From the NCBI GenBank assembly GCA_022829145.1, contig CM040741.1:51182180-51246179 (forward strand): 64,000 nt of DNA. The letters run 5' to 3'. Below the pieces are notes generated by a model. The model worked only from the letters and a program-made list of their open reading frames with translations. It was not told the DNA's origin and searched no databases. Position 1 is the stretch's first letter, and the number at the start of each line of letters is the position of its first letter. Made by a program: the position numbers and the translations under genes. Positions 34,601 through 40,600 of the stretch are shown piece after piece. The DNA comes from Albula goreensis (Eukaryota; Chordata; Actinopteri; Albuliformes; Albulidae).

Positions 34601-37600
34601 AGGGGCAGGGTCAAGGAGTGGCACATGATGGCTTTGCCTGTGGGCCAAAGGGACTTCTCTGGTGTCCTGGGCATATTCCCATAATGGTTCTCTACATCTG
34701 GCCATCAAATCAGCCAATGTAATTGATTTTCTAATTGCTAGGACTGAGGAATCGAAGTTAACAGACACAAAGTCAAAGTTTATAAAAGTTGCTAGCACAA
34801 GCTTAAAAAATAAACCCTTTTGCCAAAATGTGTTAAAATGAATTCAATTTCAATAACAATAAAGAAACCATTTTTATCTAACAATCCCTCAATACCAGCA
34901 TTTTGCCACTCATATCTTTAGGACTTGTGACAATTAGGTACACTGATGTGTAGAGAGTGTTCTGGCGCAACATGCATTGGTTGTGATTGGGTTGAGTTCC
35001 CCGTCACAATGGAGTTTTAGGTCAGGATGAAATAAACTAGCATTCTATTATTACAGTCAGTCAGGTCTGCCTCATTCTACAAACCTTATGCATCACATGA
35101 CAACGATGAAAATACCAGAGGCAAGTATGCATGGACCAGTCTGAGGGGCAAGAAAGCAGTACTGCCTATTTTTGCCTTATTTTATGAGATGATGAACAAG
35201 CATGCATGTGACAAATTGTATTTTAAAAATGAACAACATTTAAAATCTAGAAATGAATGGAGTAACATTAGGGAAATGAAGTGGTGGTCTGACTGATAGA
35301 GCTGTGGCAATGTCAATGCTTGCAATCATTGAAACTCACCAAGCAGCTGCACTAAGTTAGGGTGCTTGATCTCCTTCATAACTGCCGCCTCCTTCAGAAA
35401 CTCCTCCACCTCCATAGTGTCCTCCTGCACAGGCAGAGAGAGGAGTAAGATGGTAAGTGTGTGTTTAGAGAAAACACACAAAGAAAACTCATCCACAGAT
35501 TGCAATTTCACTTATACACCAGTAGGTGGGGATACATTTATCCTTCTACAGTTCTGCACCATCTTCTTTCACATCACCTTTCTTTTGAACAGCCTCTTTT
35601 TTCTGACAAAATTTAAGTTGCTGAGGGAAATTTTACAAAGACCAGGGCTGACTGATTATAACTGGCCTATTGTTATGAATTCATGTTATGTTAGCGGACA
35701 CCCTTATCCAAAGTAACTTGTGTAGCTTTCAATTTTTATTGAGTTAAAGCCATTTGGTATAGAACAGCCTGGTCCAAGTGTACCTTTAGTGTTTTGACAG
35801 CCACAGTGAGGTTGTACTTTTTCCACACGCCCTCATAGACCTCGCCATACTGGCCACCTCCCAGCTTGTGCTTCATGGTGATGTCGGTGCGCTCCATCTC
35901 CCACTTGTCATAGTTGGGTGAGACGCCATAGATGGTAGGCTTGTTGCGTTTGGGTGCTGGGTAATGCAGCGTTGTGATCAGGCCGTCCGACACCGTGGAG
36001 TGGTGATGTACCAGCTCTGCCAGTGTATTGAAGCGGCTTTCTGATGACACATAAAGCTGAGGAAGGGGGAAGGGGACAAGAGAGACAACACAAAGGATGT
36101 TACAGGTCAAAGTGTTGTCCCTGAAAAGGCCTGGCAAGTCATTCTTACACAACAAACTGCAGGCTTCACAACAAAATTTTGATTAGCACAAACAGGTCAA
36201 AGCAAAACAAAAGCACAAAAGGGCAAAGTGGTATTAGGGCCATTTTAAAATGCAATACATGTATTACAGATAAACGGTATATCTATATAGTGACTTTACC
36301 GGTAGATATAAGAAAGGGACCAAACCTAAGGTCCTTTTATTACATACAGAGGTAATCCACAAATATACAGAAACTTGAAAACTGGTCTTCATATGTACTT
36401 GTGTATATGAGCTGTGGGGGGTCAATAGCACCTGAAGAGGAAATCAAGATTGTGCACCTGGGTCACATGTGACAGTGATGACACACTAACATGACATGAT
36501 AAACATGACAAAAAGGAAATATTTCAGTGCTTATTTTCTGGGAAAAAAGGAAAAATAAATTTCATTGTCATCCCTTTGCAGACAAAAAAGGAACATAGAA
36601 TGAAATCTTTATGTCTACAAAAGGCACCATTGTTACAGCAGGTATATGCTCTATACGACTTCTACAAGCTGTGTCAGCTACACTTGCACTACAAAATGGC
36701 CTTAAACTAGGATTCCCGGAGGAGCTAGGCCCAACTGTCCTCTGTGATTCAAACCACAAACCACAACAGCAGGGATCCTGTTTAATAACACAGGAATCTA
36801 GGCTTCTCTGATCAGCAATTAGTTGAGGCATTCAATCAGTGCCTGGGGAGGTGGGTAGGAAACTTATTAAGTTATATGCCTGGTTTGTGTCAGCTAAACA
36901 GTCAGACAGTGGGAGAGGGAGCAGAGTTGGGGGGTTCCAGAAAGAGCGCGAGCCTTCTGGTGCTGCAGGGCAGGACTGCCCTGTATCTTGCTGTGGAATG
37001 GCTGCTTGTAGCATTCTCCTCATATTTCTCATTCCAACACCTCACATCACCTCCCTGTGGAATTATGGGATGCCAGCAGACTCTCCACCTCCCCATCACT
37101 CTAATACATGCCTGGGTCGCAGCTCCCCCACAGGGACTTGTGGTCAGCTGGCCAGCAGCTGGCTGGGGTCATGGTTTGATGAATGTCTGCTATGCACTTG
37201 TGGCCTCCTTGACCTTAGTGAGGTCCAGTGCTGCAGTTAGCCCGTTGTTGATTAACAAGCTTTTTCTAGGTTAAGGAGGGGGGAAAAAAAACGCTGCCCC
37301 CTTCACTTAATCCTGCTGTCTGGTCTGTGTCATCCCACACTTTCATAAGCTTCACATCCTAGGGAGTCTTGAATTACTGGACTCATAAACTGTGTCACCC
37401 CACACCTCCATCGTCCAGAAAACCTCAAACTAAACCACTCCTGCTCCATTTTGCTTAGTATGCTAACTGCTAAGGCACCTCCAACATGAAATGAAATCCA
37501 ACCCAGCTGGGATCACACACCATCATGGAAAACACAGACAGTTTAAAAAGTCCACAATTCAATGATTTAATTACAATACAAAATAAAAAAGTAAAAAATG

Positions 37601-40600
37601 CACTGCACTTCACATGGAATTATAATTTTTCCAAACCTTTGGTGATGTTATTTTTCCAAGGACACACCAGGAAACACTGAAAGTTCACGATGTGTGCCTA
37701 GTACATTTTGCCTTTGTGAATGCAGGGTTAATGCAGTAATGGTAGATGTAGCCTCATTTGTCAGGCTCATTACTATAATGCTTTCCTGGCTATTGACGGG
37801 GTGATCTAGTTGCTATACACCCAGCCAAGAATATTCTTAGTCAGTGCTTTGTATCACTGTAACCATCATGGCTTAGTGCCTCCTAACATCATGGACACTT
37901 CAATGCAAAGGTCAGGTACTACTTCTGACCAATCACACTTTCTTGAAGATGGGATCCCAACCTGAAGCAGCTATTCTGAGCTGGAAAGTTGTCCAATGGT
38001 CAATCTGTAGTAAATGTAAACATAGGTTTACAATTTTCTTGGCTTACCGTTTCCACCAAATGCAGAAATCTGAGGGCAACAATTAAATTACAGGCAATTT
38101 ATGCCAAAAATCAATGCACGTTTTCTAGACACTGTCAGCGATGGAGTATCTGGAGTCAATGACATGGTAGCCGCAATGTTAATACAGTAGTAGGAGACGC
38201 AGTGTTGTTGTGGTAGTGACAGATGCAGAGCTAACCTTAAGGCCAGATGCAGTGTTGATGCGGTAGTGGTACACACGACCCTCATAGCGCAGCGAGATGG
38301 ACCTCTGACCAGGGCTGCTTTCACTCTCACGCACCAGGAAGCTGCCGTTGATGCCACTGCTGAGTAGATACTCAGCTGCGTTTCGTGAAACAGGCCCATG
38401 ATACCAGCTGTGCTTCTCCAGGCTGTTGACGGGGGTGATGTAGTTGCTGGGTACCCAGCCCTGGCCATTCTTGGTCTGTGCCTCACACCACTCACCATTG
38501 TGGTTGTAGCCCAAGACCCGGAGCTTCTCGCCTAAGAAGGAAATTACATCACAATAAACATTAAATACTTCTCACTAGTTATTCCTTTCAGTGAGAAAAA
38601 ATAACAGTACAATACAAAATAAAAAAGTAAAAAATGCACTGCACTTCACATGGAATTATAATTTTTCCAAACCTTTGGTGATGTTATTTTTCCAAGGACA
38701 CACCAGGAAACACTGAAAGTTCACGATGTGTGCCTAGTACATTTTGCCTTTGTGAATGCAGGGTTAATGCAGTAATGGTAGATGTAGCCTCATTTGTCAG
38801 GCTCATTACTATAATGCTTTCCTGGCTATTGACGGGGTGATCTAGTTGCTATACACCCAGCCAAGAATATTCTTAGTCAGTGCTTTGTATCACTGTAACC
38901 ATCATGGCTTAGTGCCTCCTAACATCATGGACACTTCAATGCAAAGGTCAGGTACTACTTCTGACCAATCACACTTTCTTGAAGATGGGATCCCAACCTG
39001 AAGCAGCTATTCTGAGCTGGAAAGTTGTCCAATGGTCAATCTGTAGTAAATGTAAACATAGGTTTACAATTTTCTTGGCTTACCGTTTCCACCAAATGCA
39101 GAAATCTGAGGGCAACAATTAAATTACAGGCAATTTATGCCAAAATCAATGCGCGTTTCTAGACACTGTCAGCGATGGAGTATCTGGAGTCAATGACATG
39201 GTAGCCGCAATGTTAATACAGTAGTAGGAGACGCAGTGTTGTTGTGGTAGTGACAGATGCAGAGCTAACCTTGGCGTCAGATGCAGTGTTGATGCGGTAG
39301 TGGTACACACGACCCTCATAGCGCAGCGAGATGGACCTCTGACCAGGGCTGCTTTCACTCTCACGCACCAGGAAGCTGCCGTTGATGCCACTGCTGAGTA
39401 GATACTCAGCTGCGTTTCGTGAAACAGGCCCATGATACCAGCTGTGCTTCTCCAGGCTGTTGACGGGGGTGATGTAGTTGCTGGGTACCCAGCCCTGGCC
39501 ATTCTTGGTCTGTGCCTCACACCACTCACCATTGTGGTTGTAGCCCAAGACCCGGAGCTTCTCGCCTAAGAAGGAAATTACATCACAATAAACATTAAAT
39601 ACTTCTCACTAGTTATTCCTTTCAGTGAGAAAAAATAACAGTACAATACAAAATAAAAAAGTAAAAAATGCACTGCACTTCACATGGAATTATAATTTTT
39701 CCAAACCTTTGGTGATGTTATTTTTCCAAGGACACACCAGGAAACACTGAAAGTTCACGATGTGTGCCTAGTACATTTTGCCTTTGTGAATGCAGGGTTA
39801 ATGCAGTAATGGTAGATGTAGCCTCATTTGTCAGGCTCATTACTATAATGCTTTCCTGGCTATTGACGGGGTGATGTAGTTGCTATACACCCAGCCAAGA
39901 ATATTCTTAGTGAATATTTACTAAGAATATATATTTACTGTTTCATTTAATTACTGTGTTTTTTTAGTACTGTTTCATGTGTTGTGTGTACAGTGTGAGT
40001 GACTTCAGGTGTTAATTTAGGTATAAATTCTGACTTACGTCGAAAATTGGCTTACGACAAGTCATATTGAAACGGAACTCGTTTGTAAGTTGAGGACCCC
40101 CCTGTTGTCCAAAAATTACAAAATCTAGTGATGTGCATTAACGGCTGTTTTTGTTTTCACCGTCAGATCCAAAAATTTGGACAAATGGCATGAAATCCAT
40201 GCTTCTGTGAGAACACTGACTTGAACATTTTTACTAGCAGCACCTTTTCACAGAAAATAACCTGTTGTAGGTGTGTGAACAGCCAATACAAATGCACTTT
40301 TTCTACAAAGCATGAGACTCTCAAGTTAACCATACATGCTAAACATCAATAAAAATTGTAAGCGTCATTTTGTTTTCTCAGAACTGAATTTTATGCTCCG
40401 TAAAGCATCACATCATCTTCCCCCATTCTTCAGCTGTACTATGTCCTCTAAATTTCTGAGATGTATAGAAAAGAGTTTCTGGAGCAGGAAACACAGTGTA
40501 CAAGCCCAGTGTGAAATAATTTCCACTCCCTGTCCTCTTCTGTTCTGCCCCCAGTTTCTCTGTGACACATCAGTGTGTCACAATCTTTCATCATCAGCTC

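Follow-up and report, generated by a model that had tools for sequence, protein, structure and literature searches.

The abl1 locus

In the window analysed here – the whole 64-kb stretch of DNA, part of a 72-Mb contig – the minus strand carries an abl1 gene, with matches running from the alternative first exons through the last exon (Table 1). Reading frames are open in exons 2 and 4-9 as well as in the long last exon, and exon 10 is represented by a short, weak match only. The exon labels are presumptive, as they come from matches to the human protein sequence and follow the numbering of the human gene; the identity of exon 3 is additionally based on solved ABL1 chains, and exon 3B matches such a chain at 97 of 98 residues. 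The residues suggest that the host may be a bony fish.

Table 1. Coordinates of the abl1 exons and repeated segments in the window.
Feature	Position	Strand	Details
abl1 alternative exon 1b	62726-62595	-	protein match
abl1 alternative exon 1a	47928-47851	-	protein match
abl1 exon 2	41634..41798	-	165 nt
Truncated third unit	39642..39911	-	269/270 identical to start of unit 1
Truncated exon-3 relic, unit 3	39797..39911	-	91/114 aligned bases identical, 11 gap openings
Unit 2	38608..39641	-	1034 bp, contains exon 3B
Exon 3B	39270..39565	-	296 nt, ending TASDAK
Decayed exon-3 relic, unit 2	38763..38912	-	113/147 aligned bases identical, 13 gap openings
Unit 1	37572..38607	-	1036 bp, contains exon 3A
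Exon 3A	38236..38531	-	296 nt, ending TASGLK
Dispersed repeat within unit 1	~37902..38159	.	at least 36 other genomic matches listed, 66-82% identity
Decayed exon-3 relic, unit 1	37727..37876	-	113/147 aligned bases identical, 13 gap openings
abl1 exon 4	35784..36056	-	273 nt; holds TGA 35980-35978 reached by the 3B-3A product
abl1 last exon	29958-31649	-	long open frame; F-actin binding domain (Pfam)

Two near-identical units and their copies of exon 3

Exon 3 is present twice, within units of a direct repeat whose three starting points are the lower coordinates of the units in Table 1. Alignment of units 1 and 2, which are identical in 1031 of 1038 columns, confirms the preliminary description of this DNA as having two 296-nt exons with equal splice sites, 738 nt apart, in repeat units that are 1036 and 1034 bp long. 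The GT-AG sites are the same in both copies, and so are the 60 nt leading up to the acceptor and the 8 nt that follow the donor. The accompanying claim that each copy encodes the end of SH3 together with SH2 also holds, with Pfam finding both domains in both exons, albeit with SH3 scores slightly below the gathering cut-off.

The exons themselves are identical at 292 of 296 nucleotides, and the differences – at exon positions 289, 291, 292 and 293, that is, within the last 8 nt – alter two adjacent residues, which are DA in 3B and GL in 3A. In the assembly, this gene thus has a pair of adjacent homologous exons, each with its splice sites, as in a tandem exon duplication. The pair is the sole one in 144 kb (the window plus 80 kb of flanks), where BLAST revealed no second direct repeat with a length of 100 nt or more and an identity of 90% or more within 6 kb.

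All differences between the units are confined to 38106-38240 (unit 1 coordinates), and three of the seven differing columns lie within a dispersed repeat. With the exonic block counted as one, the seven columns amount to four events, two of which are homopolymer length changes. Simulation gives P 0.008 for all four events lying within 135 nt and P 0.003 for three of four lying within 16 nt, and this clustering is unpredicted by steady divergence. Possible causes are gene conversion of the rest, a mutation of several bases at once, or an error in the consensus.

A truncated third unit and decayed relics of exon 3

The preliminary description mentioned neither a third, partial unit, nor exon-3 relics, the dispersed repeat or the paralogous genes. 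The third unit breaks off within an AT-rich hairpin at 39901-39930, which has 11 paired bases and a folding energy of -7.2 kcal/mol that none of 200 shuffles equalled, and which may mark the breakpoint mechanism.

Each of the three units also contains a segment resembling exon 3 (Table 1). For unit 1 the local alignment score is 100, compared with a best score of 57 among 300 resampled controls, and the 3′ end of the relic also matches exon 3, scoring 38 against a best of 30 in 500 shuffles. By eye, the relic reads GC at the site where exon 3 is followed by GT, and in units 1 and 2, although not in unit 3, one of the stretches that match on translation contains a stop. The presence of a relic in the units implies that exon 3 had been duplicated here at least once long before, and that the old copy decayed.

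A single position bears on which copying step came first. The starts of units 1 and 2 are here called R1 and R2, and the third, partial unit R3; R1 (at 37806) and R2 (at 38842) have C at this position, whereas R3 (at 39876) and exon 3 have G. This one base suggests two copying steps in sequence, in which an R block and R3 would first have come to flank a single exon 3, and the unit would have doubled later.

abl paralogues in the same genome

When the whole genome is searched for exon 3B, at least four places are listed, of which two are at this locus and one each in an abl1-like gene (L009, C4:22704000-22713999) and an abl2-like gene (L010, C13:26352000-26361999), names that we assigned from sequence similarity. 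Each of these genes has one exon 3 among the matches listed, and the 10 kb examined on C4 include recognisable exons 2-7 of the abl1-like gene. Both paralogues end exon 3 in TASDGK, as do four solved ABL1 chains, and for this reason we take TASGLK of exon 3A as derived. The Asp of 3B is common to both paralogues, and 3B has Ala where they have Gly.

The relic can be compared with the C1 (this locus) and C4 genes at nine usable sites, six of which are like C1, two like C4 and one like neither, a weak hint that it may have arisen after the C1/C4 split. Stretches outside the array were also searched for exon-3-like relics, with none above control: the best scores, each set beside the highest among 60 resampled controls, were 31 against 42 and 33 against 56 in flanking stretches here, 26 against 37 and 37 against 59 in C4 intron stretches, and 40 against 60 and 21 against 27 in C13 intron stretches.

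Reading frames and splicing of the two copies

The exon chains 2-3B-4 and 2-3A-4 are both open. Because the exon is 296 nt long, inclusion of both copies shifts the frame, and the chain 2-3B-3A-4 runs into a TGA in exon 4 (offset 76) that lies 194 nt ahead of the exon 4/5 junction; when exon 3 is skipped altogether, a TGA is reached at offset 146, 124 nt ahead of that junction. With a TGA in exon 4 either way, the products of double and zero inclusion are predicted to be non-functional, and transcripts with stops so far ahead of the next junction are, as a general rule, expected to be targeted by nonsense-mediated decay (NMD). These computations support what had been proposed before, namely that joining 3B to 3A shifts the frame into a TGA in exon 4, and that only one copy can be used per working transcript unless another segment restores the frame.

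The further proposal of mutually exclusive splicing fared less well. Functional mutually exclusive Abl1 SH2 exons would entail the use of one copy per transcript, clearance of double- and zero-inclusion products by NMD, and a difference between SDAK and SGLK. Such a system would agree with the open frames and intact splice sites of both copies, with exonic differences that alter two adjacent residues, and with premature stops on double and zero inclusion, as in the duplicated exons of U2AF1 (PMC5224494). However, the acceptors and donors are identical and lie across a 738-nt intron, an AG at -38 speaks against a distant branch point, and an earlier duplicate of exon 3 has already decayed; identity at 292 of 296 bases moreover implies almost no time for divergence, and comparable events in humans are described as mostly ancient (PMC9741552). 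The copies are not of the diverged, conserved kind, for they are nearly identical and each of the two paralogues shows one copy.

Particular devices were considered in turn. Steric exclusion between 3B and 3A was rejected on the length of the intron, and U2/U12-type incompatibility because both copies have the same GT-AG sites. Competing RNA pairing was sought between 36057 and 41633 as ungapped inverted repeats of at least 14 nt, and none of the 10 inverted pairs listed is convincing. Two of them link unit to unit, one of 26 nt at 77% and one, within the exons, of 14 nt at 100%, and both are palindromes repeated along with the unit; two others, of 16 nt (94%) and 18 nt (78%), bracket the whole array and were given no weight. 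With the same sites, near-identical introns, neither a steric or splice-site device nor convincing pairing found, a difference of two residues and a decayed predecessor, regulated mutually exclusive splicing is unsupported. From the sequence we judge regulated SH2 exons of this type unlikely, and a functional pair as set out above very unlikely. Clearance of the faulty transcripts by NMD would simply follow from the frame and is no evidence of a switch.

Where exons have equal sites and sufficient room between them, joint inclusion is the expected outcome, and joint splicing of 3B and 3A would destroy the product. Because joining both copies would disrupt the protein, an accidental duplication, or an assembly error, is more probable than an evolved splicing switch. 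It is also conceivable that one copy alone is recognised in practice, with the other carried along silently as a second relic in the making. The existing relic has met the same fate at this locus once already, but 3A and 3B share their splice sites and almost all of the exon body, such that, in the sequence, only position could favour one over the other, and we regard this outcome as extremely improbable.

Duplication or assembly artefact

Identity in 1031 of 1038 columns is as close as alleles within one species can be, in keeping with a very recent duplication, to which assembly error is a serious rival. The true haplotypes could have one exon 3 between two near-identical 270-bp blocks, with an assembler or polisher having taken the loop twice and placed two alleles, or two noisy versions of one segment, in tandem. 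R1 and R3 are indeed near-identical direct repeats around the exon and share 234 exact bases, which would form a loop in a short-word assembly graph, and the differences between the units are few and clustered, two of them being homopolymer changes, a common type of error. Moreover, false exon gains and false duplications arising from heterozygous or erroneous reads have been described (PMC9516828).

Against this, there is no N in the 144 kb comprising the window and its flanks, and hence no gap between the copies, whereas gaps between copies on one scaffold are among the four primary marks of false duplication given in PMC9516828. The assembly of 932 Mb in only 208 contigs suggests long reads, which would be able to span 2.3 kb, the exonic differences preserve length and frame, and no other comparable duplication is present in the 144 kb. 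No separate haplotype copy of exon 3 appears among the listed whole-genome matches to exon 3B. Because flanking near-identical repeats favour unequal crossing over and an assembly-graph loop alike, sequence alone cannot separate the two. On balance we think that the duplication is probably real, and that an artefact, although the less likely account, deserves appreciable weight. If it is an artefact, it warns that near-identical flanking blocks can yield a convincing false exon pair.

Probable origin and expected consequences of the duplication

A recent duplication had been offered in the preliminary description, along with assembly error, as an alternative to mutually exclusive splicing, and it is now favoured. 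The explanation that we hold with moderate confidence is a very recent tandem duplication of a segment of about 1035 bp with abl1 exon 3, at the site of an older, decayed duplicate, which may lower abl1 output. Near-identical 270-bp blocks would already have lain on either side of exon 3, and unequal recombination or replication slippage between them probably doubled the unit. Double-inclusion transcripts, with their shifted frame and stop in exon 4, would then be removed by NMD, and Abl1 would be made only from transcripts that happen to use a single copy. The expected result is a reduced output of the duplicated gene, which would be tolerable because a second abl1-like gene is present. The duplication may be polymorphic rather than fixed.

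If real, the locus presents a frame-breaking exon duplication caught at the outset, beside a failed older one and in the company of a second abl1-like gene, and it would allow a test of how a genome copes with a duplication before splicing control exists.

The pair is best read as a tandem exon duplication of an already known type. Frameshifting tandem duplications of single exons are known to knock out genes, as in human dystrophin. Like these, the abl1 case involves a constitutive exon with a length not divisible by three; unlike them, it belongs to a reference assembly that also contains a second abl1-like gene. Human tandem duplicated exon substitutions likewise involve homologous neighbouring exons within one gene, one case being a kinase with duplicated exons spanning the SH2-kinase linker, but the human pairs are described as mostly ancient and many as tissue-specific (PMC9741552), whereas the abl1 pair is recent and without sign of regulation. 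False exon gains in assemblies (PMC9516828) resemble it in being near-identical partial duplications in one gene, and differ from it in that no gap separates the abl1 copies.

Exons Ab and 3 of U2AF1 are also tandem duplicates in which inclusion of both or neither leads to stop codons, the resulting transcripts being lowered by NMD (PMC5224494). The U2AF1 copies differ in seven residues, have been kept through vertebrates and have distinct 3′ splice-site regions, in contrast to the identical sites and near-nil divergence of the abl1 copies. The same account describes how NMD, by clearing transcripts with both exons, increases the proportion that use one of them and leaves room for the copies to diverge, and the abl1 pair could some day reach mutual exclusivity by this route. 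That this vertebrate abl1 gene already has a newborn, pre-divergence pair of SH2 exons used in mutual exclusion – with NMD alone enforcing the use of one copy, the change from DA to GL a first functional difference, and the spot one that repeatedly duplicates exon 3 – we consider highly improbable. Among the entries shown by a search of the literature with thin coverage of subscription journals, none reports a duplicated abl1 exon 3, as judged by titles and the starts of abstracts.

Other features of the window

Directly downstream of the 3A donor, at 38120-38235, there is a short stretch like the end of exon 3 (score 37, with no control), which may represent a minor duplication at this spot. 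A 61-bp inverted repeat (32391-32451 and 32643-32703, 98% matching) lies in intronic abl1 sequence and is reminiscent of the termini of a small mobile element. A gene neighbouring abl1 is marked by an open frame on the plus strand at 20328-20714, which has a Ras-family GTPase match (Pfam) and appears to be a Rab.
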